Positions 39,200 through 56,734 of a stretch of DNA of 64,000 nucleotides are shown piece after piece. The stretch is from Desulfovibrio sp. UCD-KL4C (GTDB taxonomy: Bacteria > Desulfobacterota > Desulfovibrionia > Desulfovibrionales > Desulfovibrionaceae): the NCBI RefSeq assembly GCF_006210265.1, contig NZ_VCNC01000001.1, forward strand, positions 62,001-126,000, read 5' to 3'. Position 1 is the first letter of the stretch. Each line of letters begins with the position of its first letter. The notes below the pieces were generated by a model. It was not told where the DNA came from and searched no databases. It saw only the letters and a list, made by a program, of their open reading frames with translations. Made by a program: the position numbers and the translations under genes.

Positions 39200-39214
39200 G
39201 CAATAATGAGGCCA
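39200..39214 (-). promoter_or_regulatory. Sigma-54 promoter of the Fe-alcohol dehydrogenase gene
   Basis: The - strand reads TGGCCTCATTATTGC: TGGC at -24 and TTGC at -12, with exactly 10 bases between GG and GC. The predicted start point near 39188 gives a leader of about 60 bases before ATG 39128. A possible IHF site (AATCAATGGTCTA, 39289-39301) lies between it and the upstream array. Confidence 0.8.
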
Positions 39215-39335
39215 AAGTTTAACTTGTTTTATTTCAAATGCTTATGTGTTTCATGGGGTGAGCGTAGTGGATCGCTACTCTTTAAAAAAATCAATGGTCT
39301 AAGGTTTCGTATTACAAAAATGTGAAGGAGGGAGG

Positions 39336-39367
39336 CTCGGAATGGTTATAAAACGTACCATTCCGAG
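39336..39367 (-). terminator. Hairpin after the sigma-54 activator gene
   Basis: CTCGGAATGG pairs perfectly with CCATTCCGAG over a 12-base loop, 64 bases downstream of the activator stop and just beyond the activator binding array. The - strand flank is C/T-rich (CCTCCCTCC) rather than a T-run. Confidence 0.6.
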
Positions 39368-39370
39368 TGC

Positions 39371-39408
39371 TGTGTCATTTTGTCTCAGTATATAAAGGCT
39401 GTGTGTCA
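39371..39408. promoter_or_regulatory. Three-copy heptamer array, probable activator binding site (UAS) for the alcohol dehydrogenase
   Basis: On the + strand: TGTGTCA (39371), 3 bases, TGTCTCA (39381), 14 bases, TGTGTCA (39402). Starts are 10 and 21 bp apart, so all copies lie on one face of the helix. It ends 157 bp upstream of the sigma-54 promoter. The same array with identical spacing occurs at 56697-56734. Confidence 0.75.
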
Positions 39409-39430
39409 CTCATTTTTGGGTTGTCTTGGT

Positions 39431-40771
39431 CTATAAATTATATTTATCAATTTTGCGGTAAAGGGTTTTACGGCCTATACCAAGGGCTTGCGCAGCTTTA
39501 AGTCTGTTGCCGTTAAAAAAATCTATAGCCTTGATAATGTGTTCCCGTTCCATGCGTTCAAGGGAGAGTATGCCGGTTTCACGGTCCCGCTCCGGTTGAT
39601 CTGCAATTTCACGAGGAAGACAGTTGCAGGTGATTACATAATTGTCGGATAGGATGATGCTGCGCTCCAGAACGTTTCTTAGTTCACGGACATTACCCGG
39701 CCAATAGTAGGAAAGCATACACTGCATGGCCCGTTCGCTCACTGTGTACTCGCCTTGTCCTATCTGCTGCCCGAGTTTGTTAAGAAAGAAATCAACCAGA
39801 AGAGGAACGTCTTCACGGCGATCTTTTAGCGGCGGCAGGTTGATATTGAACACATTGATGCGGTGAAAAAGAGCTTCGTGAAATCTTCCGGCTTCAACTT
39901 CCTGCGCAAGGTTGCGGTTGGTGGCAAAAAGAAAGCGTATGTCGACTGTCCGTTCGTCTTTTTCTCCGACTCTGCGGAAATTATGCGATTCCAGTACTCG
40001 CAGTAGTGAAGCCTGCACTTCCATCGGCAGTTCGCCTATTTCATCAAGAAAAAGAGTACCGGTATGGGCAAAGGTCATCAGACCGTCACTGTTGTCCATA
40101 GCTCCGGTAAATGAGCCGCGGGTATGACCGAAAAGTTCACTGCGTGCGAGTTCTTTTTGCAGAGTTGCACAGTTCTTTACAATAAGAGGTTTGCCGGCAC
40201 GCTGGCTTGCAGTGTGGATGCTGTGCGCAACAACGTCTTTACCTGCACCGGAATCTCCGGTGATAAGGACTGGTACTCCTGTCGGGGCGACTTTGCCTAT
40301 CAAGTGGTGAATATGTTTTATTGAAGCGGCTTGGCCAATGAGCTGCGTGCTTGCTGTATCATTTTGTGAGTGTTTATAGCTCCGGTTTTCACGCTGTAGA
40401 CAGACTCTTTGCCATGCGCGGTCAACAACTAATTCCATCCTATCGAGCCTGAAGGGCTTGGTAATATAGTCATAAGCACCAATACGGATAGCTTCCACTG
40501 CATTATCAATATTGCCGTGTCCGGTGATGAGAATTACTTCTATCTCCGGTTCAATATCTTTGAATTCTGTAAGCAGTTCAAGCCCGTCTCCGTCAGGCAG
40601 TCTTATATCTGAAACGATAATATCAAAGCGGACTTTGCGCATTTGCTCTCTAGCCGCCTGAGCGCAACTTGCCGTATGGATAGTCCGTTCAGGGCTTGCA
40701 AGTTCCTTGCTAAGTAATTTCAGTATGGACTCTTCATCATCGACAACAAGAATTTTATAAGATTCTGGCAT
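39431..40771 (-). CDS. Sigma-54-dependent response regulator (NtrC family)
   Basis: 446 residues. Receiver domain 1-~120 with acidic pocket VVDDEES and phospho-acceptor D55 (IIVSDIRLPDGDG). AAA+ domain ~145-380: Walker A GDSGAGKDVVAHSI, the sigma-54 loop as GSFTGA rather than the usual GAFTGA, and Walker B GTLFLDEIGELP. C-terminal Fis-type helix-turn-helix (IIKAIDFFNGNRLKAAQALG then IGRKTLYRKI). It is encoded 13 bases after its kinase. It is the natural candidate for binding the arrays at 39371 and 56697 and activating the alcohol dehydrogenase and mop promoters. Confidence 0.95.
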   Translation of the reverse strand: MPESYKILVVDDEESILKLLSKELASPERTIHTASCAQAAREQMRKVRFDIIVSDIRLPDGDGLELLTEFKDIEPEIEVILITGHGNIDNAVEAIRIGAYDYITKPFRLDRMELVVDRAWQRVCLQRENRSYKHSQNDTASTQLIGQAASIKHIHHLIGKVAPTGVPVLITGDSGAGKDVVAHSIHTASQRAGKPLIVKNCATLQKELARSELFGHTRGSFTGAMDNSDGLMTFAHTGTLFLDEIGELPMEVQASLLRVLESHNFRRVGEKDERTVDIRFLFATNRNLAQEVEAGRFHEALFHRINVFNINLPPLKDRREDVPLLVDFFLNKLGQQIGQGEYTVSERAMQCMLSYYWPGNVRELRNVLERSIILSDNYVITCNCLPREIADQPERDRETGILSLERMEREHIIKAIDFFNGNRLKAAQALGIGRKTLYRKIDKYNL

Positions 40772-40784
40772 TTCTATTTTCTCA

Positions 40785-41966
40785 CTATATTGGAAGAAGT
40801 ACTGTGAAACATGAGCCTTGGTTTGGTTCGCTGTCCACTACGATTTCGCCGTTATGCTCTCGAACGATATTGTAGCAGGTGGATAAGCCTATACCTATTC
40901 CGCGCCCGACTGATTTCGTCGTAAAAAAAGGTTCAAAAAGCATGTCTTTGTTTTCCGGTGGAATTCCGCATCCAGAGTCACTGACTTTCAGTCCTACGTG
41001 GGTGGCTGTGGAAAATGTTTTTACATGAATTTCCCCTGATTCACCTACTGCATCAATTGCGTTGGTCATAAGATTTAGTATCACCTGCTTAAGTTGAGCT
41101 TCATCTCCGTATATGTGAGATAACGATGAGGATAGTTCTGCATGAAGGTCGATATCTTTTCTTTTCCGGAACTGATGGTCCAGTAATCGCAATGTGTCTT
41201 TTGCTACCTGATTGAAGTCGACAGGAAGGAAATCTGCTGCAACCGGACGGCTGAATGAAAGCAGAGTTTTTACAATATCCTGACAACGCAGGCATTCTTT
41301 CAAAATAGTATTTGTGTAGTCGTTCAGATCTTCCGCAAGGTCATCCGGTACAGAATCGTCCAGTCTGGCAAGTCTACGCTGAATTCCTTCTGCAAATCCG
41401 GCTACAGCAGCCATGGGGTTATTTATTTCATGGGCAACACCGGCGGCAAGCACGCCTATGGTCGCCATTTTTTCAGCCTGATAGAACTTTGCCTGATATT
41501 CCTTTTCTAAAGTAACATCCCTCTTAAATATAAGAATGCGGTTTTCAGTAAGATCCGGGTTTTTTAGTGGTGAGGCGACCATGTCAAACTGCATGTTCTT
41601 TCCGTCAACTCGGAAAATAGCTGTTTCTTTACATACAGAGTTGGTGGAGAGCGCGCGGAAAGCAGGACATTCAGAGCAAGGTTTCTTGTCATGCCTAAAC
41701 AGGCTGTAGCACTTTCTGCCTATAGGATTAACACCTGGGAAAAGCTCTTCAAAAACATGGTTGACAGAAATTATTTCGAGATTTTCAGACAGAACCATCA
41801 TTACATCGGTTATGCCATCAAGGATGGCTGCAATTTCGCGTCTTTGGTCCTCTGAGTGGAGATTGAGTTCCGTTAGTTCCTGAATGTTTTTTTGCAATTC
41901 CTGAAAGAAATTTAGTTTGTTATGCTCAATGCCTATAAGGTCAAGGAGTGATGTGTTGCTGCTCAT
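40785..41966 (-). CDS. PAS sensor histidine kinase paired with the sigma-54 regulator
   Basis: 393 residues from ATG 41966, whose A is shared with the stop of the upstream alcohol dehydrogenase (TAATG), with GAGG at good spacing. The frame extends to 42005 but has no better start. A PAS domain carries a Cys cluster (RKCYSLFRHDKKPCSECPAF). HisKA has AAGVAHEINNPMAAVAGFAE. The ATPase has NLMTNAIDAVGESGE, DSGCGIPPEN and GRGIGIGLSTCYNIV. No membrane helix, so it senses a cytoplasmic cue. Translational coupling to the dehydrogenase suggests the cue is linked to alcohol, aldehyde or redox state. Confidence 0.92.
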   Translation of the reverse strand: MSSNTSLLDLIGIEHNKLNFFQELQKNIQELTELNLHSEDQRREIAAILDGITDVMMVLSENLEIISVNHVFEELFPGVNPIGRKCYSLFRHDKKPCSECPAFRALSTNSVCKETAIFRVDGKNMQFDMVASPLKNPDLTENRILIFKRDVTLEKEYQAKFYQAEKMATIGVLAAGVAHEINNPMAAVAGFAEGIQRRLARLDDSVPDDLAEDLNDYTNTILKECLRCQDIVKTLLSFSRPVAADFLPVDFNQVAKDTLRLLDHQFRKRKDIDLHAELSSSLSHIYGDEAQLKQVILNLMTNAIDAVGESGEIHVKTFSTATHVGLKVSDSGCGIPPENKDMLFEPFFTTKSVGRGIGIGLSTCYNIVREHNGEIVVDSEPNQGSCFTVLLPI

Positions 41967-43108
41967 TACCATGCCTCGTTGCATATATTTAGAAGATCGC
42001 TCCAATCAGCCTCTCTGGGGTTTGGAACAGCGCAGGCATCCTGAACAGCCAGATGACATATTTCTTCTAAGTGATTGTTGTCAGGAAGGATATCGCGCAA
42101 CCGCATGGGAATGCCCAGATCTTCAAACATATGCTGCAATGTGTTGCAAACCTGATCGGCCTTAATATCTGTTGAGCAGATGTGTGCGCCGTTAATAGTT
42201 CGGGCTATAATTGCCATTTTAGTTTTACAGCTTGAGATGTTGAAGCGCATGACTGCTGGAAGCAAGATAGGAAGCGTCATGCCGTGCATTACATCATAGC
42301 GACCGCCTAACGAATGAGCTACAGCATGACCGATGCCAAGTCCTGCATTACTGAAAGACATCCCTGCCGCAGTGCTTGCAATTGATAAATTTGTTAAGGC
42401 TTCAGGATCTTTCGTGTCTGCCGCAGGCTTAAGATTTTCAGTTATCAGTTTGATAGCGTTTAAAGCTTGTGATTCCGTGAAAGGAGAAGCTAGTCTCGAG
42501 ACATAAGATTCAATGGCGTGGGTCAGTGCGTCAACAGCAGATGATAGAATTAATTTACGGGATTTAGTAATAAGTAAGTCTGGATCAATAATTGAAATAT
42601 TCGGGACCAGTGAACGACTGATAATGGACATTTTTACTTGCCGTTTTGTGTCTGTGATAATTGCGTATTGTGAGACATCTGATCCTCCGCCAGCAGTGGT
42701 AGGGATGAAGATCATTGGCGGCAGGGGGTGACTGATTCTGTTTGCGCCTTCGTAGTCGCTGATTTGTCCGCCGTTACTTACTATTGTTGCGATTCCCTTT
42801 GCTGTGTCAATGGGACTGCCGCCGCCAAGCCCGATAATAACATCGGCCTTGTGCTCAAGATACAACTTTGCTCCTTCATGAATTTGAGTGTCACGAGGGT
42901 TTGAAGTAACATCATTAAAGTATGCACAGTCCATCTTAGCATTTTCAAGAATATTCAGAATTTGTTTTACCCATCCGGACTCTTCAAGTCCTGCATCGCT
43001 AACGAGTAAAACCCTTTTGGCTCCAAGTCGCTGTGCACATGAAGCAAGGTACTTGATACTACCGTTGCCAAAGATTATTTCCGGTATGGCAAATTTAGTT
43101 ATCTGCAC
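41966..43108 (-). CDS. Second iron-containing alcohol dehydrogenase
   Basis: 380 residues, divergent in sequence from the enzyme at 37947. GNGSIKYLASCAQRLGAKRV at the N terminus, GLGGGSPIDTAKGIATIVSN for NAD, IPTTAGGGSDVSQYAIITDT, and metal ligands in SAVDALTHAIESYVS and GHAVAHSLGGRYDVMHG. First gene of a three-gene operon with the kinase and the sigma-54 regulator. I found no sigma-54 promoter in its upstream region (43109-43211). Substrate range unknown; it may act as a second dehydrogenase or as a sensor-like partner of the kinase. Confidence 0.92.
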   Translation of the reverse strand: MQITKFAIPEIIFGNGSIKYLASCAQRLGAKRVLLVSDAGLEESGWVKQILNILENAKMDCAYFNDVTSNPRDTQIHEGAKLYLEHKADVIIGLGGGSPIDTAKGIATIVSNGGQISDYEGANRISHPLPPMIFIPTTAGGGSDVSQYAIITDTKRQVKMSIISRSLVPNISIIDPDLLITKSRKLILSSAVDALTHAIESYVSRLASPFTESQALNAIKLITENLKPAADTKDPEALTNLSIASTAAGMSFSNAGLGIGHAVAHSLGGRYDVMHGMTLPILLPAVMRFNISSCKTKMAIIARTINGAHICSTDIKADQVCNTLQHMFEDLGIPMRLRDILPDNNHLEEICHLAVQDACAVPNPREADWSDLLNICNEAW

Positions 43109-43211
43109 AAAGACTCCTTGGTGTATAAGATGTATAAATTATTATAAGAATTGTATTTATCTTTTTTATTCTTCGCGCTGAAAGCTGTAAAGTCAATAGC
43201 CCCTTTCGGAT

Positions 43212-43796
43212 TTAACTTGGAAGTATATTGAAGTTCTCAAGAATTAAGCCTGAAGATTTTTTTTTCAAAACAGTAGTACAGCAGTGAAGAGGAGACAGTT
43301 TAAAAATATTGCTTAAAGGAAATTGAAGGGTAATATGAAGGATGATGCGGATAACTCCGGCATGAGTAACAATTACTACAGGTTTTTTATGCGTTAGGAT
43401 TTTTTCTAGACCGCTTTGAACCCGTAGTTTCAGGTCTGTAAAGCTTTCTCCTTTAGGGGGGCGGTAGTTTGCGAAATCCACTCCACGCTTGATGTATTCA
43501 TTTGGAAATTGTTCTTTTATTTCCTTGAAACTAAGTCCGTCCCAGTCTCCTAAGTTAATCTCAGCAAATTCAGGACAGGGTATAGCTGTAAGGTTACATT
43601 CTGTTTCAATTGCTCTAGCTGTTTCACGTGTTCTTAAGAGAGGGCTTGTGTAGAGATGTTCAAATGGTACGTTGCATAGTGATTTAGACAGGATTTCAGA
43701 TTGTTTACGTCCTGTATCTGAAAGCGGAAGATCCGTTTGTCCTATGGCGCATCCTTTAGCTTTTTCAGCTTCACCATGACGGATGAGTATAATCAT
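43212..43796 (-). CDS. Histidine phosphatase family protein (CobC-like)
   Basis: 194 residues. The catalytic RHGEAE motif is at residues 6-11; GQTDLPLSDTGRKQSEIL and TSPLLRTRETARAIE follow, then EINLGDWDGLSFKEI and the second His in VIVTHAGVIRII. The EINLGDWDG phrasing resembles alpha-ribazole phosphatase (CobC), which would fit the B12 genes elsewhere. However it lies at the end of the molybdenum-enzyme cluster, so a role on another phosphorylated intermediate is equally possible. Confidence 0.85.
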   Translation of the reverse strand: MIILIRHGEAEKAKGCAIGQTDLPLSDTGRKQSEILSKSLCNVPFEHLYTSPLLRTRETARAIETECNLTAIPCPEFAEINLGDWDGLSFKEIKEQFPNEYIKRGVDFANYRPPKGESFTDLKLRVQSGLEKILTHKKPVVIVTHAGVIRIILHITLQFPLSNIFKLSPLHCCTTVLKKKSSGLILENFNILPS

Positions 43797-43839
43797 ATTT
43801 GAGCCTTAATGCTTTTAACTAAGTGTAGTCAGTAAAATC

Positions 43840-44973
43840 TTAGGAGATGAGTTCTTGATCTGACAATAGATCCATTATTTTAATTTTTGTCTCATTTTCA
43901 TATCTGATCATGAGATTCTCGGCTCGTTCTTGACGTCCTTTTATAGCTTTAGCTGCTTCGGGATCGTCGGCCCATTTACACATTGTATTTTCATACCGTT
44001 TGTTCAGATTTATCAGTTTGGTTCCTTTAAAAAATTTATCAGCTAAAAAGACCATTTCTTTTTCAGTTAATGGAGAGTTGTGATCAATTTTTGTGTCGCG
44101 ATGTGAGGCAACGATTTCTGAGATTCCTGTAAAACCGTAGCCCGCTAGAATATTTCCGCCTATAGTTTCATGATTTTTGCGTGTTTTAGCAACATCATGC
44201 ATCAGCGCTGCACTTTGCACGATATCCATATCCAACAGAGGGCCATTCTTGCGTGTTGCATTGAGAGCCTTTGTTATAAGGCAAGCCCCTTTTGATACCG
44301 CTTTACAATGTTCCTGTGTGCCTTCTGGAGTTTCAGACAGTTCCCAAAGTGCTTCGCATTCTTCGAGAAGAGGAAAGCGTTTGTCTCGGGAAAATCGAAG
44401 AGCTGTCGTATAATCTTCCGGCGTGTCCAGATCATGCAAGATTCCGAGATCCGGCATGTTTTTCTCTCTGGAATTTGAATCATGTTTTTCTAAAATTTTG
44501 CGTAGACCGCCGTTTCCGTCATGTTGCAGAATTTCAGGGATAAGTTTTGCACTTATAAGCGGAGGATGCCCTCGTTTACCCTTAAATGCCGGATAAAGAA
44601 TATCTACGGGAGAGTTATTAAAATCAAAGGTAAGAGCCCGTATTGTTGATGATCTTACCAAGGGAATATCAACCGGCAATACAAAAAATGCTGAGGTATC
44701 GTCTGGGAGAGCATGTATCCCGGTGATAACGGAAGAGAACATACCCTGTTCATAGTCAGGGTTGTATACGGAATTAATTCCGAGTTTATGAACTTCCGGT
44801 TCAACTGTCTTTGCTTTGTATCCTGTTACGACAAAGACTTCGGAAACCCCGCCATCAAGCAAAGATCGGACACAGTTTGAAAGTACACTTCCTCCGTCCA
44901 GAGGTAGCATCGCTTTAAGAGTCCCCATGCGTGATGACAGCCCTGCGGCTAGCACCAGTCCATAAATGTTCAT
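43840..44973 (-). CDS. MobA/MocA-like nucleotidyltransferase fused to an HD domain
   Basis: 377 residues; ATG 44973 lies 2 bases after the XdhC stop. Residues 1-~200: GLVLAAGLSSRMGTLKAMLP, the NTP-binding loop of molybdenum cofactor cytidylyl/guanylyltransferases, then VLPVDIPLVRS and GKRGHPPLISAKLIPEI. Residues ~215-377: HD phosphohydrolase with AALMHDVAKTRKNHETIGGN. The first half probably transfers CMP to molybdopterin to make MCD, the cofactor form in Mop. The role of the HD half is unknown; it might hydrolyse a nucleotide product. Matches what I recall as the DVU_1551 NTP transferase family. Confidence 0.85.
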   Translation of the reverse strand: MNIYGLVLAAGLSSRMGTLKAMLPLDGGSVLSNCVRSLLDGGVSEVFVVTGYKAKTVEPEVHKLGINSVYNPDYEQGMFSSVITGIHALPDDTSAFFVLPVDIPLVRSSTIRALTFDFNNSPVDILYPAFKGKRGHPPLISAKLIPEILQHDGNGGLRKILEKHDSNSREKNMPDLGILHDLDTPEDYTTALRFSRDKRFPLLEECEALWELSETPEGTQEHCKAVSKGACLITKALNATRKNGPLLDMDIVQSAALMHDVAKTRKNHETIGGNILAGYGFTGISEIVASHRDTKIDHNSPLTEKEMVFLADKFFKGTKLINLNKRYENTMCKWADDPEAAKAIKGRQERAENLMIRYENETKIKIMDLLSDQELIS

Positions 44974-44975
44974 GA

Positions 44976-46022
44976 TCAATCCCCGGATCTTTCTTGAATA
45001 AGTTCTGCAACGATGCTGACTGCGATTTCTTCAGGAGTCTGCGCTCCTATGCTAATTCCTATGGGGCAATGACAGCGATCTATGCTTTCTTGCGTAACGC
45101 CTTCTTCAATAAGTGCATCATAGATGGCGTTGCGTTTTTTGGAGCTTCCGATCATTCCCACATAGCGGGCTGGGGTCTTAAGCGCCTCTGCAAGCACTGT
45201 TTTGTCATGCAGATGCCCCCGTGTAACTATTATAATGTATGAACTTTCTGTGACGTTCAGGTTTGCAAATGCATTTTCAAAATTAGTAAGTACTTTGATT
45301 TCATCCGCCAGCGGAAAGCGATCAGCGTTTGCAAATTCGCTTCGGTCATCCAGAACTACAGTTCTGAAATTTACAGAAGATGCTAAGGCTGCAGTGGGGC
45401 GTGAAACATGACCTGCTCCGAAAATAAATAAACTGGGCTGTGGAGCAAAGGATTCAGCAATAAGCTGTTTTGTTTCAGATTCTAGAACTATCGGCTTGTC
45501 TGTTTTACGGGATTTGATGAGAATCGTTAAAAGTTCTTCCCTAGGAAAATTAGTTATTACAGGTACATCTTGGTCTAAGTCTACAACTCTTTTGCTTGAG
45601 GTAGAGGATGTTTCACCCTTATCCATAAGAGTCAAAGTCGTTATCTTTTGTCCGAGTCTTAAGCCTGTATCAATGGTTGAAAATATGGTGGTGTTTTCTT
45701 TGTCAGCAGAAAGATGTTCAAGCATCACTGTTACGTTGCCACCACAAATCATGTCTGCGTTTGCTGCCAGTTCATTAGAAAGGTCAAACTTTTTAAACGT
45801 AACAGCATTTTCAAGATTATTAAAAAGTTTCGCGGCAGCTTGTAGAACTAGGGCTTCAACGAGTCCTCCTCCGATTGTTCCGTCAATTTCTCCGTTGCGA
45901 AGAATTACCATTTTACTGCCTGAGGAACGAGGGGTGGAACCTGTACTTTTGACAATACTTGCAAGGATGAGGTCATTACCTGATTCTAACTGCAACCGTA
46001 TATTATGAATGAGCTTTTTCAT
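44976..46022 (-). CDS. XdhC family molybdenum-enzyme maturation protein
   Basis: 348 residues. The N-terminal XdhC domain has ILASIVKSTGSTPRSSGSKM and IGGGLVEALVLQAAAKLF; the Cys ligand lies in NADMICGGNVTVMLEHL. The C-terminal Rossmann domain has FIFGAGHVSRPTAALASSVN and GMIGSSKKRNAIYDALIEEG. XdhC proteins bind the molybdenum cofactor, promote its sulfuration and hand it to xanthine-oxidase-family apoenzymes; here the client is presumably Mop. It is coupled to the MobA-like gene downstream. Confidence 0.93.
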   Translation of the reverse strand: MKKLIHNIRLQLESGNDLILASIVKSTGSTPRSSGSKMVILRNGEIDGTIGGGLVEALVLQAAAKLFNNLENAVTFKKFDLSNELAANADMICGGNVTVMLEHLSADKENTTIFSTIDTGLRLGQKITTLTLMDKGETSSTSSKRVVDLDQDVPVITNFPREELLTILIKSRKTDKPIVLESETKQLIAESFAPQPSLFIFGAGHVSRPTAALASSVNFRTVVLDDRSEFANADRFPLADEIKVLTNFENAFANLNVTESSYIIIVTRGHLHDKTVLAEALKTPARYVGMIGSSKKRNAIYDALIEEGVTQESIDRCHCPIGISIGAQTPEEIAVSIVAELIQERSGD

Positions 46023-46046
46023 TAAATGAAGACCTTTTAGGTTTGT

Positions 46047-47360
46047 TTAAGATGAAGTTATTAATCTTTTTCCAAAACCTGAACTGATGCTGCCATCGTT
46101 GTTATCAACTATAATGATAATTTTCAAATTGTTTTCTAGAATAGCGCGGCTTAGTTTAGGGTAGGAAGTTAAGGCTCTTGTAAGATCTGTCGGGATTTTA
46201 GACGCAGGGGCTATGTCCAAAGAAATGTTAATGGCAAGTGGTTGCTGTTGATAATTAACTTTGAAGTCAAGAACTCCGACATACGGCAGGATTAATTCAT
46301 TAAGTTCAGCCATAGACAGATATTCTGAGGTCGGCAAAAGAATGTCGGTATCGAGTCTGCCTTTTACATCTCCTAGCCTACGCATAGACAACCCGCATGT
46401 GCATTGATTTGGAAGAATTTGCCCGAGATCCCCTGTTTTATATCTGATAAGCGGCATTGCTCTTCGCGATAGAGTCGTAAATAAAATTTCCCCACTGTTT
46501 CCGTCTGGCACAGGTAAGCCTGTCTCAGGATCGGTTATTTCAAGGTAAAAATCAGGTTCCCGTAGGTGCATACCTGAACCCTGGAAGCATTCAACTGCAC
46601 CGCCAAGACAAGTCTCTGTCATGCCCCAGTGAGAGAAAATTTCACATCCGAATATATTTGCGATTGTCTGAATTGCTACTGGCGGTAATAGATCCCAGCA
46701 GAGAAGGGCAGAACGTACTTGATTTTTGGGGAGTCGTTTTTTTTTCCATAGCCGCGCCAATGCATGAATATGTATGGCAGGTCCTAAAAGGCAAGTTGCC
46801 CTCGAATTTAAGAGTAAATTCAGTAAATTTTGAATGTCAGATGGATCTTCAGGGTAAACAATTTTTGCCCCAAGTCTTGAGATACTTTCAGCAAATAAAG
46901 CTCCTACTCCACCTGGACGCGAATCCGGCAGCAGTGCGAGTACTGTTTCTCCTTTTCCCAGTAATGGACCCATACCGTAATGGAAAAACTCAGTAGTGCG
47001 CTCTAAGTCTCCGGCAGTAAAAAAAAGACGCTTAGGGGGGCCGCTTGATCCTGAGCTTGAAAGAGTTATAGCCCTTGCGACCTCATCTTGAGATATACAT
47101 AGAAAACTGTTTGGATTTTTCCGAAGATCTTCAGGTGTCGTTACCGGTAATTTGCTGAGGTCCGCAGGAGTAAGAATTTTATCTGGAGTGATATTTTTTA
47201 AATGATTTGAATAAAAAGGAGAAGTTTTTATGGCGTGATTTAGCGTTTTTCGTAACAGATCAAATTGCCAATTCTGTAGTTTCTTAGGGGAAACACTTCC
47301 TGAATTAAGGGGGCGTCCCATGCGCAGATTCAGCCAGCATTCAAGGGGGTGATTAATCAT
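46047..47360 (-). CDS. AMP-forming ligase, phenylacetate-CoA ligase-like
   Basis: 437 residues of the PaaK/adenylate-forming family: TLSSSGSSGPPKRLFFTAGD is the ATP-binding P-loop, HWGMTETCLGGAVECFQGS the A5 motif, and RYKTGDLGQILPNQC the A7-A8 region. Two Cys (CTCG) near residue 320 recall the metal-binding Cys of PaaK relatives. It activates an unidentified carboxylate as an adenylate, perhaps onward to a thioester. It overlaps the radical SAM gene by 8 bases, so the two are translated together. Resembles what I recall as the DVU_1553 family. Why a molybdenum-enzyme locus needs an acid ligase is unexplained. Confidence 0.82.
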   Translation of the reverse strand: MINHPLECWLNLRMGRPLNSGSVSPKKLQNWQFDLLRKTLNHAIKTSPFYSNHLKNITPDKILTPADLSKLPVTTPEDLRKNPNSFLCISQDEVARAITLSSSGSSGPPKRLFFTAGDLERTTEFFHYGMGPLLGKGETVLALLPDSRPGGVGALFAESISRLGAKIVYPEDPSDIQNLLNLLLNSRATCLLGPAIHIHALARLWKKKRLPKNQVRSALLCWDLLPPVAIQTIANIFGCEIFSHWGMTETCLGGAVECFQGSGMHLREPDFYLEITDPETGLPVPDGNSGEILFTTLSRRAMPLIRYKTGDLGQILPNQCTCGLSMRRLGDVKGRLDTDILLPTSEYLSMAELNELILPYVGVLDFKVNYQQQPLAINISLDIAPASKIPTDLTRALTSYPKLSRAILENNLKIIIIVDNNDGSISSGFGKRLITSS

Positions 47361-49195: not shown

Positions 49196-49211
49196 ATGAA
49201 TATCTCCGGGA

Positions 49212-49885: not shown

Positions 49886-50104
49886 CTATTTATCCTCCAG
49901 AAGACTCTCCACTTCGGCCATTTTCCCAAGTGCAAGATCTTCGGGGATAAGTACCAAACCGCAAACAGGGCAAGATGGCAGTTCCACTTTAAATCGGCTT
50001 TCAAGATAACCAAGCTCAATTGGCTTTGGTACAAGTTTCTCGCCGCAGGCAGCGCATTTCCAAGATGAAAAGTCTTCACCATCAAGAACTTTTAATGTGC
50101 TCAT
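49886..50104 (-). CDS. Small zinc-ribbon/rubredoxin-like protein
   Basis: 72 residues with CAAC near residue 17 (SSWKCAACGEKL) and CPVC near residue 45 (LPSCPVCGLVLIPED), four Cys suited to one Zn or Fe. Its ATG overlaps the stop of the upstream oxidoreductase (ATGA-type, 4 bases). It may carry electrons or bind metal for the flavoprotein encoded next to it. Resembles the DVU_1557 redox protein family. Confidence 0.8.
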   Translation of the reverse strand: MSTLKVLDGEDFSSWKCAACGEKLVPKPIELGYLESRFKVELPSCPVCGLVLIPEDLALGKMAEVESLLEDK

Positions 50105-52380
50105 TTACTGCCTCCTAATATCTTCATGCGATGGCTCCATACTCTATGGATTAAATACGTGTCTCCATCTACCATTTCATATTCTACCCAGTAAGTAACG
50201 GTGACAGGTCTGTGATATATAAGTTTATGACCTGTATCAGTATTTTCGAGTACTTTTCCTGTTTTCTGAACAGCTTCAATGGTCTTTTTAATATCAGAAA
50301 CAAGAATGCGTCGTTCTTCCATGTGCTTTTGAGCCTCTTCGGTATAAGAGACTTTAATTGCTTCATAAGCAGGGCGAGGAGTAGAAGGTGTTTTCCAAAC
50401 ATTTTCCAGCATCTGTTCTTTAAGTCTAACCCGATTTTCACGGCGCGTAGAGTAACGTGGAGCAGTTCGTGCTGCCGGATCTGTATTTTCTGAAGGGAAT
50501 ATAATATCAAGTATATTGAGACAACGTTTGCCTGTTTTTGCAAGTAAATCGCGACACATAGCGCAATATGTTATGCCGTCGCCATCAAGCTTTGAAGCTC
50601 TATGTTCCGCAACTTTTTGGGATAACGGTTCGTTGGCATCACTGAGCAATCCTCCGAAGCCACAACATTCCGTATGCAGTCCTGAAAGTTCCGGTTCAGT
50701 AAATTCTAATCCTAAATCCGTAAGTAAAATGCGAACATCAGCTAAGAGTTTCTCGTTGTGTCTGGCCGAACATGGATCCTGTAAAGCCGGAATTGATTTT
50801 GGCAAAACTGGATTCAAATTTTTGCGATACAGGCATAACAAAGACCATAGTGAAGTAATCTCAGCTTCTGGAATCGCTTTGTGTAAAGTTTCCATACATG
50901 AAGGGCAAGCCGCGATTATTTTAGGCTTGCCAAGGGATTCCCAGTCAGAACGTAATTCAGTAGATTTTTTATCAAAAAGATCAACTATTCCCGACCAGTC
51001 TGCGGGGGCAGAGCAGCAACGGAGCATAAGGCCTGTCCCACCGGTTAAAGTGTCGCACAGAAAACTGTACGAATTTTTTACCGCGTCGGGATCTGATGCT
51101 GGAAGCTGACAACCTGGGAAGAAAGCCCATTCACTTTGTTCAAATCCATTCTGATGGCGGTTGATAGCGCAAGCTTCACTGTCCGCAAACTCCATATCAC
51201 GTAGAGCAAATTCATGAGCCGATTGCGGCATAACCCCTTGCTCAACCAGATCTTTTCTGGCTTCTATACAGAGATTTTTCATAGAGAAACTTTCTGGGCA
51301 TATCTCTGTGCATAAATCACATAGCATACAGGAATTAATAAGCTTATTAGCTCTTCGTGTACCCATTACTATTGAGGCATTATTGTATATCTGGCGAGCG
51401 AAAATTTTAGGATATTCTTTGAAGTTTTCTAGATATACGCAATTTTTAACACATTCCATACATTCGCAAAGTAGACAACGGGCAGCCTCTTCTTTTGCTG
51501 AATCAGCAGTGTAACCGTTTTTAGGGACAGCAATAGGGGCAAGCGGTTCAACTTTACTTATGTTTGTGAACAGTTTTGTTTCAAAAGGTTCATCACGTTC
51601 GCGCCCTGCAGAAAGAGACGCATTTTGCATAAACCGTTCAATGGATAATGCTCCTTTGCGGCCTATTGCTATGAGTGTAATTGGTGATGCGTTCTTTTCC
51701 GGCTGAGATGCGGCAAAAAGTCCCTTTTTTTCCGTTTCAAGAGTTGTAAGAGAAGGAGTGGAAATTTTAAGATTTTCAGGGCTGCATGCTATGGGGTCTG
51801 CAAATACTGCATCAAAATTTTTAAGAGATTCTTCGTCAAGTGTATCATCAAAAGTACTGTTTTCAACGAAAGTTACACCCATCTTTTTGATGACTTCAAT
51901 TTCATGTTTGAAGATATCTACAGTCAACCATTCTTGGGGTAGAGTTTCAAAAGCTTCGTAGGTATTTTTTAGAAAGAGTGTGACAGTAAAACCTTTTTTA
52001 GCAAGGTCCCATGCTGCAGTCAGCCCGGGTAGAAATCCACCGAGAACCGCAACTGTTTTCCCACGTGGAGGTAATGGCCTGAAAGGAGGAGTTCGCTTTG
52101 TGTTTTCAGCGCAAAAGCGTTCAAGGTCGGCCATTTCAATACCACCGCCGACTTTCTCGCGGAGGCATGAATTTTTACATGGAGCATCACAAATACGTGC
52201 TGTTACTGCTGGGAAAGGTAATGTTCGGCAAAGAACGGCCCATGCTTTGTCTACTTGTCCTGCTGCAATCTGCTTACAGAATTCCCGTCCATCTACGTGA
52301 AGAGGGCATGCTGCTTTGCAACGCGGCGGTTCTTCCTGAATACATTTAGCTTCCCATTCGCGAAGTGAATTTTGTTCCAT
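50101..52380 (-). CDS. Large flavin/Fe-S oxidoreductase with CCG domains
   Basis: 759 residues in several parts. The N-terminal Fe-S region resembles the GltD/NfnB type (PRCKAACPLHVDGREFCKQI, RICDAPCKNSCLREKVGG). A dinucleotide-binding fold follows (TVAVLGGFLPGLTAAWDLAK) whose GxGxxG is altered to GGFLPG. A two-cluster ferredoxin-like segment comes next (CLLCECMECVKNCVYLENF, CMLCDLCTEICPESF), then heterodisulfide-reductase-like CCG regions (MLRCCSAPADWSG, HTECCGFGGLLSD). The last ~120 residues are extra. It probably moves electrons between a soluble carrier and a thiol/disulfide or cofactor. It has lost part of the nucleotide-binding motif, so FAD binding is uncertain. Confidence 0.8.
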   Translation of the reverse strand: MEQNSLREWEAKCIQEEPPRCKAACPLHVDGREFCKQIAAGQVDKAWAVLCRTLPFPAVTARICDAPCKNSCLREKVGGGIEMADLERFCAENTKRTPPFRPLPPRGKTVAVLGGFLPGLTAAWDLAKKGFTVTLFLKNTYEAFETLPQEWLTVDIFKHEIEVIKKMGVTFVENSTFDDTLDEESLKNFDAVFADPIACSPENLKISTPSLTTLETEKKGLFAASQPEKNASPITLIAIGRKGALSIERFMQNASLSAGRERDEPFETKLFTNISKVEPLAPIAVPKNGYTADSAKEEAARCLLCECMECVKNCVYLENFKEYPKIFARQIYNNASIVMGTRRANKLINSCMLCDLCTEICPESFSMKNLCIEARKDLVEQGVMPQSAHEFALRDMEFADSEACAINRHQNGFEQSEWAFFPGCQLPASDPDAVKNSYSFLCDTLTGGTGLMLRCCSAPADWSGIVDLFDKKSTELRSDWESLGKPKIIAACPSCMETLHKAIPEAEITSLWSLLCLYRKNLNPVLPKSIPALQDPCSARHNEKLLADVRILLTDLGLEFTEPELSGLHTECCGFGGLLSDANEPLSQKVAEHRASKLDGDGITYCAMCRDLLAKTGKRCLNILDIIFPSENTDPAARTAPRYSTRRENRVRLKEQMLENVWKTPSTPRPAYEAIKVSYTEEAQKHMEERRILVSDIKKTIEAVQKTGKVLENTDTGHKLIYHRPVTVTYWVEYEMVDGDTYLIHRVWSHRMKILGGSK

Positions 52381-52407
52381 GATACTCCCATAGCTGTAAA
52401 ATAAATA

Positions 52408-52448
52408 AGGTCGTGATCGTGTGCTTTAGAAACGCACGACCACGACCT
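52408..52448 (-). terminator. Hairpin between mop and the flavin/Fe-S gene
   Basis: A long stem of 16 pairs with one mismatch (AGGTCGTG-x-TCGTG arms), then TATTTATTTTA on the - strand. It probably ends most mop transcripts while letting some readthrough into the downstream cluster, giving high Mop and low maturation proteins. Confidence 0.7.
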
Positions 52449-52465
52449 ATTATATTATGATATTA

Positions 52466-55186
52466 CTATTTAGCTTTCATTGCAGCAAGAATCTTTTCAG
52501 GTCTGGCTGGAAGATGAGTAACGCGTGCTCCGCATGCATCGTAGATAGCATTGATAATTGCGCCATGAGGGCAGGTCAAAGGCATTTCACCAACTCCTGA
52601 TGCTCCATGAGGACCGTCAGGGCGAGGTGCTTCAACATAAACAACTTCCATATCGTCTGGGATCTGTTTGATGTATGGGAAGCCTGCACCGACCATTGTG
52701 GAATGTTTCTTGATATCTTCATAGTCTTCATAAAGAGCAATTCCGATACCCTGAGCAAGACCACCGTAGACCTGACCGTCAACAACAAGTCTGTTGTTGA
52801 TTTTACCGATGTCGGTAACAAGTGCTGCTCTTTCAATTGAAGCTTTACCAGTTGCAATTTCGACAGCAGCTTCCATTATGAACAGTCCGTACATATAGCA
52901 TGCAAATGGGCTACCCTGACCGTTTTCATCACACTCAGTACAAGGAGAAGTCCAAGATCCGCTGTAACGAAGGGCTTTGTTTTCTTTTACCATTTCGTCA
53001 TAAGTGCGGTATTTACCGTCTGCTTTACGCATAGCGTCAAGTAATTCTCTACATGTTGCTACGATGGCGTTACCGATAACAACCTGTGAGCGGCTACCAC
53101 CTGCAGGTCCGCCGTTAGGGCAGGTGCGGGTGTCGTTCATAACAAGTTTAATCTGCTCAGGAGCAAGACCTAGTGGGCGGAGAGTTTCATGAGCTGTTCC
53201 AAGAACACCCATGTCAGCACCCTGACCATGATCAAGCCAGCAAGCATACATGGTTACAGTTCCGTCAGCATGAAGTTCAATTTCAGCGCCGGCAGTATCA
53301 GGTCCATCAAGTCCGCAACCGTAAACACCAAGAGCAACACCTACACCGTGTTTAACAGTATCGGTAGATTTTTCAGCAACACGTTTTTTGGCTGCTTGGT
53401 ACATTGGACGGGCTTTAGTGAATATTTCTTCAAGGCTTAAGACTTCAGGAGTCTGTCCTGTCGGAGTTGTGGAACCTTCGCGATAGATGTTTTTGTAACG
53501 AAGTTCGAATGGGTCCATGTTCAGTTTTTCAGCAAGTTCGTCCATCAGTACTTCTGATGCAAACTCAACTTCTGTTGAACCGTATCCACGGAAAGCAGAA
53601 CCCCATGCGTGGTTGGTACAAACGGTGCGACCTTTACCACGGATGGAATCAATGTCGTAACCTGCGCCGATGAACTGGGCTCCGCGAAGAGTCAGAAGGT
53701 CACCGAATTCGGAGTAAGGACCGTGGTCACAAATCCAGTCGGTTTCCATGGAGCGGAGTTTACCGTCGTTATCTGCAGCAAGGCGTACTGTTGTGAAGAA
53801 CGGTGAACGTTTTCCTGTGTAAGTCTGCTGCTGGTACCATGTGTAGTTAAGGAATACAGGTCTGCCGGTAGCAAGACATGCAACACCTACAAGTGCTTCC
53901 ATGGTAGGGCTGAATTTGTAACCGAAAGTACCACCTGCATAGTTCTGAACCATGATCAGGTTTTCAAGCTCGATTCCCATACCAGGAGCAATCATTGCTG
54001 CATGCAGATGCAGACCGATTGATTTTGAATGGATGCAAAGTTTGTCGTCATCATCTAGATATGCAAAACCTACATCAGGTTCAATCGGCATGTGTGGCTG
54101 ACGTGAAACATAATAACTGTTTTCGACAACAGCATCAGCTTTATCAAAAATAGGAGCGGTGTCATCGCCTTTGGCAATTTTCTGTTCAAAGTAAACGTTA
54201 GGTGTGCCGGGATGAATTTCGATTGCATCTTCAGCCATAGCTGCAGGTGCGCTCATGTATTCAGGTAGCTGTTCGATTTCTACTACAACTTTTGCAGCAG
54301 CTTCTTTTGCATGCTTTTCAGTGTCAGCACAAACAATGGCAATTGCATCACCGTACTGGAAGATTTTCTTCTCAGCTAGGATTGGTCTGTCCCATCCGTC
54401 ACCTTTGTTTGTTGGGAAGGTGATCAGGCCAGTAATGAGGTTCTTACCTTTGATATCTTTGTGGGTAACAACTTTAAAGACGCCTTCCATCTTCTCAGCT
54501 TCGGTTGTGTCGATAGAAATAATGTTTGCATGAGAAACTTCAGCCTGCACCAAAGCACATCTAAGTGTTCCTTCAGGCATTTTGATACCGAGGTCAGCAC
54601 CGTAATCAAGTGTTCCGGTAACTTTGGCAACAGCTGTTGGGCGTGGGTATTTTGAACCCCAGATGCGTCCGTCTTCAGGAAGCTTGAAGAGCAGATCTTC
54701 AACTTTCATGTCACCGCGCATAACTGCGGCAGCGTCCATGGTTGCATCAACAAGCTGTTTGTAACCTGTACAACGGCAGGCATTGCGATGTTTCTGGAAC
54801 CAAGCGCGAACATCTTCGCGAGTTGGAGATGGGTTTGATAAAATGAGGCCGTAGGTGGAAATAATAAATCCTGGAGTACAGAACCCGCACTGTGCAGCAC
54901 CATGTGCCATCCATGCAATCTGGATAGGATGCATCTGAGTTGGTGTTCCGATTCCTTCAGTGGTCAGGATTTCAGTAAAGTCTTCAACTCGGCTCATCTT
55001 AAGAGAACATGTGCGTTTTACCTTTCCATCCATAAGGACAGAACAACTACCGCATTGTCCGGTTCCGCAACCAATTTTAACACTGGTAAGACCTAAGTTT
55101 TCGCGTAAAACAGTAGCCAACGGGGTGTCGTTTTCCACAATCACCACGCGTTCTACTCCGTTAACTTTTAGAGTTCTTTTGATCAT
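52466..55186 (-). CDS. mop: Aldehyde oxidoreductase Mop (xanthine oxidase family)
   Basis: 906 residues; D. gigas Mop is 907. Residues 1-~155 carry both [2Fe-2S] clusters: C40, C45, C48, C60 and C100, C103, C137, C139, exactly the D. gigas positions. The rest is the molybdenum domain, with GGSRSQVVIGNAIVATC, TYTGKRSPFF and the catalytic Glu in GASGVGEMPLTCPHGA (E867). It oxidises aldehydes to acids at a Mo-MCD centre, releasing electrons to flavodoxin or ferredoxin. ATG follows AAGGAGG. It lies 67 bases after the MoeA-like gene and ahead of its own apparent maturation genes. Confidence 0.97.
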   Translation of the reverse strand: MIKRTLKVNGVERVVIVENDTPLATVLRENLGLTSVKIGCGTGQCGSCSVLMDGKVKRTCSLKMSRVEDFTEILTTEGIGTPTQMHPIQIAWMAHGAAQCGFCTPGFIISTYGLILSNPSPTREDVRAWFQKHRNACRCTGYKQLVDATMDAAAVMRGDMKVEDLLFKLPEDGRIWGSKYPRPTAVAKVTGTLDYGADLGIKMPEGTLRCALVQAEVSHANIISIDTTEAEKMEGVFKVVTHKDIKGKNLITGLITFPTNKGDGWDRPILAEKKIFQYGDAIAIVCADTEKHAKEAAAKVVVEIEQLPEYMSAPAAMAEDAIEIHPGTPNVYFEQKIAKGDDTAPIFDKADAVVENSYYVSRQPHMPIEPDVGFAYLDDDDKLCIHSKSIGLHLHAAMIAPGMGIELENLIMVQNYAGGTFGYKFSPTMEALVGVACLATGRPVFLNYTWYQQQTYTGKRSPFFTTVRLAADNDGKLRSMETDWICDHGPYSEFGDLLTLRGAQFIGAGYDIDSIRGKGRTVCTNHAWGSAFRGYGSTEVEFASEVLMDELAEKLNMDPFELRYKNIYREGSTTPTGQTPEVLSLEEIFTKARPMYQAAKKRVAEKSTDTVKHGVGVALGVYGCGLDGPDTAGAEIELHADGTVTMYACWLDHGQGADMGVLGTAHETLRPLGLAPEQIKLVMNDTRTCPNGGPAGGSRSQVVIGNAIVATCRELLDAMRKADGKYRTYDEMVKENKALRYSGSWTSPCTECDENGQGSPFACYMYGLFIMEAAVEIATGKASIERAALVTDIGKINNRLVVDGQVYGGLAQGIGIALYEDYEDIKKHSTMVGAGFPYIKQIPDDMEVVYVEAPRPDGPHGASGVGEMPLTCPHGAIINAIYDACGARVTHLPARPEKILAAMKAK

Positions 55187-55253
55187 CCTAGGAGCCTCCT
55201 TAAAAGAATTTCTGTTTTAATATAATTAGGCGCCCGAAACAGGCGTCAATTGA

Positions 55254-56273
55254 CTATTTACCGAAGGAACAGAGAGGGTAGCGGCAAGTCTCGCACCCGG
55301 CACAGAATCCTCCGTGCCCGAGAGCCGCAATTTCTTTTCGTGTCGGACGTTCTCCCGCAACAATTCGCGGCACGATCAGGTCAAAAATACTGGCCCGGTA
55401 ATACATAACACAGCCGGGCAGGCCGATAATCGGCACACCGTTAAGATATGCCAACATAAACATTACTCCGGGGAAGGACGGTGTTCCGTACGTGACGACC
55501 TCTGCTCCGGTTGAGCGGATACTCGCGGGGGTTTGGTCATCTGGATCAACGCTCATCCCACCAGTCAACACGACCATTTGCGCTCCGTCATCAATACATT
55601 TCATGATAGCAGCGCGGGTCATATCAGGGTCATCGCTGACAAGTGTTTGGGAAATTACTTCAGAATTTAATGCGTCGAATTTTTTGCGGATAACAGGTCC
55701 GAATTTGTCTTTGATGCGTCCGGTGTAAACTTCGCTTCCTGTTGTGATTAGGGCGACGTCTAGATTTCTGAAAGGTTTAACGCTGACAATAGGGCCGGAT
55801 TCTCTACAGATTTTTTCTACTTCAATTATTTTACTTTCATCAATGACGAGAGGCACTACTCTGGTACCTGCAACGTCGCGAGGTTCTGTAATTTGAATTC
55901 CGTTATGCATGGTCGCCAGTACGACTTCATCAATGGAATTAATGCGTTCAAGTGCTTCAACATTGATGGAGAGTAAGCCGGGAGCAGCCTTCATATTAAT
56001 GCGGCCTTCAGATATGGTGGAAAGAGTTATTCCCGGTCCGGCTGCAGCTTTGGCAATGCGTCTTGCCGCATCATTTTCATGAAGCTGACCTTCTGCAAGT
56101 GTCAGAATATAAACGTGTTCTTTACCTATTTCGAGTAGGACAGGAATATCTTCCTGTTTGATAATATGTCCTTTTTTAAAAGCAGGCCCTTTGTATTCAC
56201 CAGGAATAATACGGGTCATATCATGGCAAAGTACGCTTCCGATAGCATCTTGAACAGGCACTGTTTTCATCAT
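55254..56273 (-). CDS. MoeA/MogA-like molybdopterin-binding protein
   Basis: 339 residues from ATG 56273, with GGAG 9 bases upstream; the frame is open to 56378 without a signal. It contains the MoaB/Mog-type domain: ALITTGSEVYTGRIKDKFGP and VVLTGGMSVDPDDQTPASI, with GLPGCVMYYRASIFDLIVPR. The N-terminal part (TVPVQDAIGSVLCHDMTRII) is MoeA-like. The C-terminal GGFCAGCETCRYPLCSFGK adds four Cys not found in standard MoeA and may bind a cluster or metal. It probably inserts or handles Mo/W in molybdopterin for Mop. A sigma-54 promoter at 56527 would make a leader of about 240 bases. Confidence 0.88.
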   Translation of the reverse strand: MMKTVPVQDAIGSVLCHDMTRIIPGEYKGPAFKKGHIIKQEDIPVLLEIGKEHVYILTLAEGQLHENDAARRIAKAAAGPGITLSTISEGRINMKAAPGLLSINVEALERINSIDEVVLATMHNGIQITEPRDVAGTRVVPLVIDESKIIEVEKICRESGPIVSVKPFRNLDVALITTGSEVYTGRIKDKFGPVIRKKFDALNSEVISQTLVSDDPDMTRAAIMKCIDDGAQMVVLTGGMSVDPDDQTPASIRSTGAEVVTYGTPSFPGVMFMLAYLNGVPIIGLPGCVMYYRASIFDLIVPRIVAGERPTRKEIAALGHGGFCAGCETCRYPLCSFGK

Positions 56274-56526
56274 GAGTAAGGGCTCCAGAATCTTTTTTTT
56301 GCTTATTGTATGTGCCGTTTGTCTAGGCACTGTTCCCAAATTAGTGTGTAAATTTTCAACTTTGTTGTTATAATCCAAATCTATATGTCGAGATGGGCAT
56401 AATAAGTCAAGCTGTTAATCCTAGCAGATATGTAAAAAAAGCTATTTTTGAACTATCTTTCGCATCTATAAATGTGATAATAGTAAAGGTTGGCTTATTT
56501 TTATGAGTAACTAACGGACTCTTTAA

Positions 56527-56541
56527 GCAAAAAGAGGTCCA
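56527..56541 (-). promoter_or_regulatory. Sigma-54 promoter of the MoeA-like/mop unit
   Basis: The - strand reads TGGACCTCTTTTTGC: GG and GC separated by 10 bases, with a T-rich -12 side. The -24 element is TGGA instead of TGGC. The distance to the array at 56697 (156 bp) matches the alcohol dehydrogenase promoter (157 bp), which is the main reason to trust it. The rest of the gene-free stretch 56274-56755 shows no convincing ORF. Confidence 0.7.
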
Positions 56542-56696
56542 AAAAAATATAATCAATATTTCAGATGGTTGGGCTAGGGGAGGTGTGTAAAAGTGGATCG
56601 TTTTATTAAAAATAATAATAGGCTGGGCAACAATTGTTACTGTTATAGCTAAATTAATATGCGGCAAGTGGCATAAAAAAGGGAGCTAAAACGAAC

Positions 56697-56734
56697 TGTG
56701 TCATTTTGGCTCACTTTTGAATGAATGTGTGTCA
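56697..56734. promoter_or_regulatory. Three-copy heptamer array, probable activator binding site (UAS) for MoeA-like/mop
   Basis: On the + strand: TGTGTCA (56697), 3 bases, TGGCTCA (56707), 14 bases, TGTGTCA (56728). Two of the heptamers are identical to, and the third differs by one base from, those at 39371-39408; spacers between copies are of equal length but different sequence, so only the heptamers are conserved. Confidence 0.75.

Follow-up and report, generated by a model that had tools for sequence, protein, structure and literature searches.

Promoters of the sigma-54 type have remote activator sites about 80-200 base pairs (bp) upstream, which are usually inverted repeats. The closest described system to the locus presented here is the DVU2394 regulon of D. 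vulgaris Hildenborough, in which a two-component sigma-54 response regulator with a GSFTGA loop was mapped to the adh operon (DVU2405) at a site called a direct repeat, with stress-response targets added in the text (Rajeev 2011, PMC3333781). The DVU2394 entry of Kazakov 2015 gives the loop GSFTGA and DVU2405-DVU2399 as the only targets (PMC4641369). The word "aldehyde" occurs in neither main text, and DVU1559 does not appear in the main text of PMC4641369. Here, a stretch of 64,000 nucleotides of Desulfovibrio sp. UCD-KL4C was analysed (the window; positions 62,001 to 126,000 of contig NZ_VCNC01000001.1), in which a two-component system of the same type very probably switches on both an iron-containing alcohol dehydrogenase (ADH1) and the molybdopterin-dependent aldehyde oxidoreductase Mop via matching control sites, as judged from sequence. 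The ADH1 half of this regulon is already known from D. vulgaris (DVU2394 acting on DVU2405; Rajeev 2011). What appears to be new, as far as our literature search goes, is the proposed extension of the regulon to Mop in six genera, together with the reading of the site as an inverted repeat, the tandem arrangement and the way the site tracks the activator. In this search, which covered few subscription journals and excluded supplements, no publication naming Mop as a target of a DVU2394-type activator was found.

Two operons are also synchronised by one activator in the orp system of D. vulgaris (DVU2106), which combines palindromic activator sites and sigma-54 promoters with sites for integration host factor (IHF) between them; in contrast to the system described here, its activator is single-component and its operons are divergent and linked to cell division (PMC3897727). 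The YiaY(ErcA)-PP_2683 module of Pseudomonas resembles the present locus in that a co-cistronic iron alcohol dehydrogenase and histidine kinase stand upstream of an alcohol-oxidation regulon. The Pseudomonas module uses a hybrid kinase and a LuxR-type activator to control pyrroloquinoline quinone dehydrogenases, whereas a sigma-54 response regulator takes this place here (PMC12997753).

The genes and control elements of the two targets, together with the two-component system and a second alcohol dehydrogenase encoded beside it, are positioned in the window as follows.

37947..39137, - strand: ADH1, iron-containing alcohol dehydrogenase, DVU2405-like by context
39200..39215, - strand: sigma-54 -24/-12 element of ADH1, TTGGCCTCATTATTGC, GG-N10-GC
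39371..39387, unstranded: predicted promoter-proximal activator dyad of ADH1, TGTGTCA-TTT-TGTCTCA, a worn TGKGTCA-N3-TGACMCA
39402..39408, unstranded: distal half-site TGTGTCA of ADH1, its start 31 bp from that of the first copy
39431..40771, - strand: sigma-54 response regulator (NtrC family, enhancer-binding protein) with GSFTGA loop and Fis-type helix-turn-helix, DVU2394-like
40785..42005, - strand: sensor histidine kinase, AtoS-like by best hit, cognate kinase by position
41966..43108, - strand: ADH2, second iron-containing alcohol dehydrogenase, its frame overlapping the kinase frame
52466..55186, - strand: Mop, molybdopterin-dependent aldehyde oxidoreductase, NF045668
55254..56378, - strand: MoeA-like molybdenum cofactor protein, first gene of the Mop operon, weak domain with best hits below cutoff
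56527..56542, - strand: sigma-54 -24/-12 element of the MoeA-like/Mop operon, TTGGACCTCTTTTTGC, GG-N10-GC
56697..56713, unstranded: predicted promoter-proximal activator dyad of Mop, TGTGTCA-TTT-TGGCTCA
56728..56734, unstranded: distal half-site TGTGTCA of Mop

The ADH1 array (39371-39408) reads TGTGTCA-TTT-TGTCTCA-N14-TGTGTCA and the Mop array (56697-56734) reads TGTGTCA-TTT-TGGCTCA-N14-TGTGTCA, with 30 of 38 bases identical between them and with one and two mismatches of the middle copy to TGTGTCA, respectively. Each array lies 154-155 bp from the TTGG of its - strand sigma-54 element. The heptamers, their spacers of 3 and 14 bp and both GG-N10-GC elements agree with an initial annotation of the window, while its description of the spacers as unrelated in sequence is fair for the 14-bp spacer (7 of 14 bases identical) and fails for the 3-bp spacer, which is TTT in both. 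Allowing up to 3 mismatches, the 38-bp pattern matched the window twice, compared to no match in 100 shuffles, and the whole genome of 3,928,489 bases held the same two arrays only (reversed-pattern controls: 0), in line with the annotation's proposal of one regulon with two arrays. In 149 genomes of the family, drawn evenly from a larger group, the pattern occurred at 20 places in 15 genomes, while its control gave 4 places in 2 genomes; 12 of the 20 fell into the own genus, and the other 8 were counted without being placed to genes.

Conservation within the genus was followed in 17 genomes, all of which carry the activator and Mop. A relaxed array (TGTGTCR-N3-TGnnnCA-N14-TGTGTCA, up to 2 mismatches) was matched 25 times in 16 of the 17 genomes, compared to no reversed-pattern control. 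Sixteen of these matches lie at ADH1, 7 at Mop and 2 elsewhere, while all 22 zero-mismatch matches and the single one-mismatch match belong to ADH1 or Mop. The 32-bp variant with N15 gave 9 matches at up to 1 mismatch, all at Mop and with no control match, the ninth being located before the MoeA-like gene of the fragmented genome G152 together with a sigma-54 element. Start-to-start spacing of the distal half-site at Mop is 31 in 7 genomes and 32 in 9, and because the distal half is shifted by one base in the latter, the fixed-spacing pattern found the Mop array in only 7 of 17 genomes. With both spacings taken together, ADH1 has the array upstream in 16 of 17 genomes, and the MoeA-like/Mop operon has it in 16 of 17; the loss of the arrays in close relatives that keep the activator, which the initial annotation had named as speaking against shared control, was thus not what was found. 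The exception at both loci is G105, whose ADH1 has two family-type dyads 31 bp apart.

The GG-N10-GC element is likewise kept at both operons in the genus genomes scanned, with the -12 part of the G074 ADH1 element reading ATGC at 157 bp from its array. In G007 and G074, the activator and ADH1 lie on a different contig from Mop and the array is kept at both loci. Seven genus genomes have the array more than 1 kilobase (kb) from the end of the activator gene, yet 155-156 bp from the ADH1 promoter, and since the latter distance is constant, the array belongs to ADH1 and not to the activator gene. Two extra ADH1 copies (86-90% identical; L156 of G140, 13037-13999, and G129:C2:847281) had no array match. 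An 18-bp block with one mismatch is common to both arrays of the window and looks copy-like, as if the Mop array had recently been copied from the ADH1 control region, or were left over from it as a relic, and had no function at Mop. This is highly improbable, considering that 16 of 17 genus genomes keep the Mop array while its spacers drift and that it has sigma-54 and IHF-like boxes of its own, that the same Mop arrangement occurs in 5 other genera and that short-word blastn of the promoter regions beyond the array returned words of at most 9 bp, one of which is the GATCCA box described below.

In relatives, the site is a 17-bp inverted repeat, TGKGTCA-N3-TGACMCA, often present in two copies 31-32 bp apart. 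A symmetrised matrix from 30 ADH1 upstream regions (that of G105 plus 29 non-genus ones) has the consensus TGTGTCA-N3-TGACACA; it was trained on the best matches to a consensus written after reading ADH1 upstream regions. Many of the 30 regions contain paired dyads at about -205 and -173 from the promoter, 31-32 bp apart, and many family relatives show a second full dyad where the ADH1 of the window has its distal half-site. Because the ADH1 sites of relatives are 17-bp inverted repeats and often paired, each array of the window is read as one worn dyad with a distal half-site, apparently left over from a tandem pair of inverted repeats. In likeness to the window, ADH1 is also preceded by two dyad-like sites at a distance of 32 bp in four Nitratidesulfovibrio-type genomes (g38).

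The direct-repeat reading was tried on the three discriminating bases of the middle copy in the genus. At ADH1, 7 of 48 bases matched the direct and 23 the inverted form, while at Mop 13 and 19 of 45 did so, respectively; the count slightly favours the inverted form, whose template permits two bases at one position. As evidence for an inverted repeat it is modest, and the family sites TGTGTCACATCGACACA and TGTGTCATTCTGACCCA weigh more. The three direct heptamers of the initial annotation are consequently better read as inverted repeats, in difference to the direct repeat given for D. vulgaris, although both sites lie upstream of adh.

The position of matrix matches was profiled from TTGG with an expectation of 0.2% per 10-bp bin. 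All 16 genus ADH1 promoters scanned had a match in the -180 bin, and all 15 genus Mop promoters scanned had one in the -180/-170 bins (G105 has no such promoter and G152 lay outside the set). In the 29 family ADH1 promoters, G105 included, matches concentrate between -220 and -170, and a minor group lies near -80 (7 of 29 promoters in that bin). Training sites are contained in the family ADH1 profile, whereas the genus and Mop profiles are free of them. A third dyad, for example TGGGACAAAATGCCCCA, was observed about 79 bp upstream of the promoter in the family ADH1 regions L226, L227, L230 and L280.

Across the 149 family genomes, the activator (E<=1e-155) was present in 53, ADH1 in 73 and Mop in 94. 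ADH1 occurred in 50 of the 53 genomes with the activator and 23 of the 96 without it, while Mop occurred in 46 and 48 of them, respectively. For the Mop operon, the 750 bp before the MoeA-like gene were scanned with the matrix from the 30 ADH1-upstream sites, covering 28 of the 37 non-genus genomes with activator and Mop and 12 of the 48 with Mop only. Genomes were called positive by paired sites and a sigma-54-like element 169-174 bp on. A Mop site was called in 14 of the 28 activator-bearing genomes, representing 5 of 14 genera, compared to 0 of 12 without the activator (one-sided hypergeometric 0.0017, ignoring shared ancestry). The positive genomes are G106, G118, G075, G058, G121, G133, G080, G024, G025, G097, G143, G090, G071 and G116, with the weakest call in G025 (pair p 0.040, best single site p 0.003).

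Upstream of ADH1, paired sites with a sigma-54-like element in place were found in none of 20 activator-less genomes, scanned out of 23 that have ADH1. Single matches occurred in G147 (p 0.010), G019 (p 0.020) and G057 (p 0.047), and promoter-like words were located elsewhere in G102 and G019. Five of the 20 belong to genus g21, in which the members with the activator (G021, G096 and G132) do show both the sites and the promoter. ADH1 is absent from the activator-less G065 and G104. In both comparisons, the sites with their sigma-54 promoter track with the activator gene, a check that the initial annotation had proposed, and together with the genus conservation they support, at the level of sequence, its claim that the activator encoded at 39431 controls both operons. 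We put the probability that this regulator opens the ADH1 and MoeA-like/Mop promoters at roughly 0.85.

Several points weigh against this reading. The Mop site was uncalled in 14 of the 28 non-genus activator-bearing genomes (G036, G096, G031, G009, G015, G032, G016, G051, G037, G010, G091, G046, G139 and G100), four of which are ambiguous: G009, with a pair p of 0.010 and no matching promoter pattern, G037, with a pair p of 0.010 and none in range, G046 and G139. The only genome tested of Nitratidesulfovibrio, the genus of D. vulgaris, was G100 (assigned by 87% DNA identity to N. liaohensis), and it had no called Mop site, while the scan of the Mop upstream region of G105 in the own genus gave nothing significant. 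The criterion of 169-174 bp was fixed after the output had been seen; the pre-set range of 100-260 bp adds the activator-bearing G036 (184; pair p 0.28) and G139 (176; p 0.027) as well as the activator-less G079 (123; p 0.70). The activator-less G028 had a pair p of 0.020, the lowest of the 12, without a promoter. Related genomes are not independent, a more diverged activator could be hidden since absence means no match at E<=1e-155, and the ADH1 comparison, not that of Mop, is partly circular because the consensus was written after reading ADH1 regions. Mop of G058, G080, G121 and other g25 genomes is only 61-63% identical. Two relaxed-array matches with 2 mismatches lie away from ADH1 and Mop (G150, G007), the 8 matches outside the genus are not placed to genes, and the validated DVU2394 motif was reported elsewhere only in D. 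vulgaris Miyazaki (PMC3333781). The claim of a shared regulon hence holds for conservation and tracking and is qualified by the half of the tested non-genus activator genomes that have no called Mop site. From this distribution, Mop appears as a target gained or lost within the family. Genomes with the activator and a Mop operon without recognisable site include G036 (L232) and G100 (L259), among others.

Three groups of D. vulgaris activator motifs have TGT and ACA half-sites in common (Kazakov 2015, PMC4641369), and the own genome holds 115 first-look candidates for the activator protein, so that another Fis-type enhancer-binding protein with a similar site might bind one or both arrays, with 39431 not being the shared regulator. 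This is unlikely, as the arrays and sigma-54 promoters track the 39431-type activator, which is repeatedly a neighbour of ADH1 or Mop elsewhere. The activator gene precedes ADH1 in many genera, and the order ADH2-kinase-activator followed by ADH1 recurs in Desulfovibrionales and beyond (L029, L030, L031, L034, L039, L041). Two activator copies are present in G058, G080 and G121, and 0.9-1.7 kb behind one of them come the MoeA-like gene and Mop on the same strand; in G058 and G121, the gap between activator and MoeA-like gene could hold another gene. The activator adjoins aldehyde oxidoreductase (AOR) maturation genes in G075 and G118, while ADH1 and the MoeA-like gene with Mop diverge from one intergenic region containing dyads in G071.

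The activator consists of a receiver, an AAA+ domain (GSFTGA) and a Fis helix-turn-helix and is encoded with a histidine kinase and an iron alcohol dehydrogenase. Its GSFTGA loop occurs in 16 of 16 other genus genomes, and GAFTGA in the more distant L031, L034 and L041. The activator of N. liaohensis (L032, D. vulgaris genus) is 59% identical in a pairwise comparison and has the same gene order (ADH2, kinase, activator) and the GSFTGA loop; the 39431 activator is a candidate ortholog of DVU2394. A second Mop paralog (59-60% identical) was observed at L177 (G129:C2, 5508-12740) and L178 (G105:C8, 6103-13303), with a further iron alcohol dehydrogenase (42-45%) and a further sigma-54 activator (37-38%) behind it, so that these three functions are found together there independently.

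Between activator site and promoter, both control regions carry two further boxes.

39232..39244, - strand: IHF-like box TAAGCATTTGAAA of the ADH1 promoter, 21 bp upstream of TTGG
39268..39273, - strand: GATCCA box of the ADH1 promoter, 58 bp upstream of TTGG
56559..56571, - strand: IHF-like box CAACCATCTGAAA of the Mop promoter, 21 bp upstream of TTGG
56594..56599, - strand: GATCCA box of the Mop promoter, 57 bp upstream of TTGG

Both IHF-like boxes are close to the reverse complement of the published consensus WATCARxxxxTTR (PMC3897727). This consensus was used for the counts, an earlier pattern having been drawn after seeing the window. With at least 7 of 9 positions matching at 20-23 bp, the box was found in 11 of 16 genus ADH1 promoters, compared to about 5% in shuffles, and in 13 of 15 genus Mop promoters scanned, compared to about 9%. 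Of the other 4-bp offset blocks, one reached 9 of 31 and all others at most 4. Since the sigma-54 orp promoters of D. vulgaris depend on IHF (PMC3897727), a role of IHF at the ADH1 and Mop promoters is plausible by analogy. Of the genus promoters scanned, 13 of 15 at Mop have GATCC 56-59 bp upstream of TTGG and 4 of 16 at ADH1 have it 58-59 bp upstream, with GATCCA replaced by GATTCA-like words in others. The GATCCA box, GATYCA-like in much of the genus, is possibly the remnant half of a third dyad.

In the proposed mechanism, kinase 40785 would phosphorylate the response regulator 39431, which would bind the dyad and half-site about 170-205 bp upstream of the two sigma-54 promoters. The IHF-like bend site near each promoter may help the regulator to contact sigma-54 RNA polymerase, and both promoters would be opened, activation being the presumed direction of control. 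The ADH1 promoter would drive ADH1, converting alcohol to aldehyde, while the second promoter would drive the MoeA-like gene and Mop, converting aldehyde to acid, and probably extend into the Mop maturation genes. Transcription from the Mop promoter may continue into the activator gene, as the gaps between the genes are short (largest 218 bp). Since the genes for ADH2, the kinase and the regulator come after the maturation genes in the same orientation, the regulator may also increase its own synthesis. The steps from alcohol to aldehyde to acid would then be co-induced, and from the gene identities we infer alcohol as the signal.

Loss-of-function changes in DVU2394 were reported during syntrophic coculture evolution (PMC8319347), which would fit an activator that binds both sites in response to a signal other than alcohol, such as the redox state or a shortage of electron donors, ADH1 and Mop then running backwards or forming a pair that detoxifies aldehyde. 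Such a signal is possible but the less probable choice, given that two alcohol dehydrogenase genes of D. alaskensis G20 show modest fitness defects specific to ethanol (PMC4215793) and that the co-encoded iron alcohol dehydrogenase and kinase resemble the alcohol module of Pseudomonas (PMC12997753). It may be suggested tentatively that ADH2 is the sensory partner of the kinase and not catabolic, its turnover on alcohol (or the NAD state) gating the kinase and hence the sigma-54 activator that co-induces ADH1 and Mop. This somewhat doubtful role is thinkable because of the co-cistronic dehydrogenase and kinase of Pseudomonas (PMC12997753) and because of a D. vulgaris proteome table giving Adh2 (DVU_2396) 2, 6 and 2 compared to 111, 64 and 27 for Adh1 (DVU_2405), in columns of unread meaning (PMC10920352). 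If it were true, many Desulfovibrionaceae would use Mop for the second step of an inducible oxidation of alcohols, though apparently not the D. vulgaris genus, for which one genome was tested.

Mop has long been characterised as an enzyme, including its structure, while its physiological pathway seems unsettled. From the conserved sigma-54 control site that Mop and ADH1 have in common in six genera, Mop is predicted to carry out the second step when alcohol oxidation is induced. Other enzymes may serve this step as well, considering that acetaldehyde oxidation in D. alaskensis G20 was assigned by fitness data to the acetaldehyde:ferredoxin oxidoreductase Dde_2460 (PMC4215793). Because the one tested genome of its genus has no Mop site, the scan suggests that D. 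vulgaris is a poor model for Mop control. The activator gene DVU2394 is reported to have been mutated repeatedly when D. vulgaris evolved in syntrophy (PMC8319347), so that a broader regulon in other genera would be relevant to electron routing in such strains.

The remaining features of the locus are a possible terminator and the genes between ADH2 and Mop.

37901..37934: terminator-like hairpin behind ADH1
43212..49883, - strand: AOR maturation genes, phosphatase-like (below cutoff) first, NCBIfam families from 43840
50101..52380, - strand: pyridine nucleotide-disulfide oxidoreductase/dicluster protein, NF045663

The families in 43840-49883 are DVU_1551, an XdhC-related AOR maturation factor, DVU_1553, the TrsS radical SAM protein, DVU_1555 and DVU_1556. 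Mop matches NF045668 over its full length (residues 2-904) with 1655.9 bits at a cutoff of 1100; this family is presumably tied to the D. gigas-type aldehyde oxidoreductase. The best NCBIfam hit of ADH2 is ErcA (NF041833), but its 411.8 bits are below the cutoff of 550, so that ADH2 was kept out of this family, in difference to the Pseudomonas module. The term MoeA-like is a working label for 55254-56378. The first listed start of this gene, a TTG at 56378, is probably too early; since many relatives align from residue 35-37, the true start probably lies near 56273.

From the MoeA-like gene through ADH1, every named gene is on the same strand. In the region 37500-57000, a sigma-70 promoter scan gave 38 matches compared to 35.8 in shuffles, and a terminator scan gave 13 compared to 17.9, fewer than expected. 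As neither scan stood out from the shuffles, the operon limits were drawn from gene spacing only. ADH1 appears to form a single-gene unit ahead of the terminator-like hairpin, whereas adh of D. vulgaris is described in an operon with heterodisulfide reductase genes.

Upstream of the Mop operon, modB-, modA- and modC-like genes were observed at 57531-59637, followed at 59634-61026 by two more genes labelled modB2 and modA2 by hand. The cluster (57531-61026) thereby has one modC-like ATPase gene amid what look like two permease and two substrate-binding genes, and in most of the genus genomes examined, a mod-type cluster adjoins the Mop operon on its upstream side. Divergent from this mod-type ATP-binding cassette transporter, 61161-62207 encodes a tyrosine-recombinase-like domain fused to a molybdopterin-binding (Mop) domain, a protein that we take to be the TunR of sulfate reducers.

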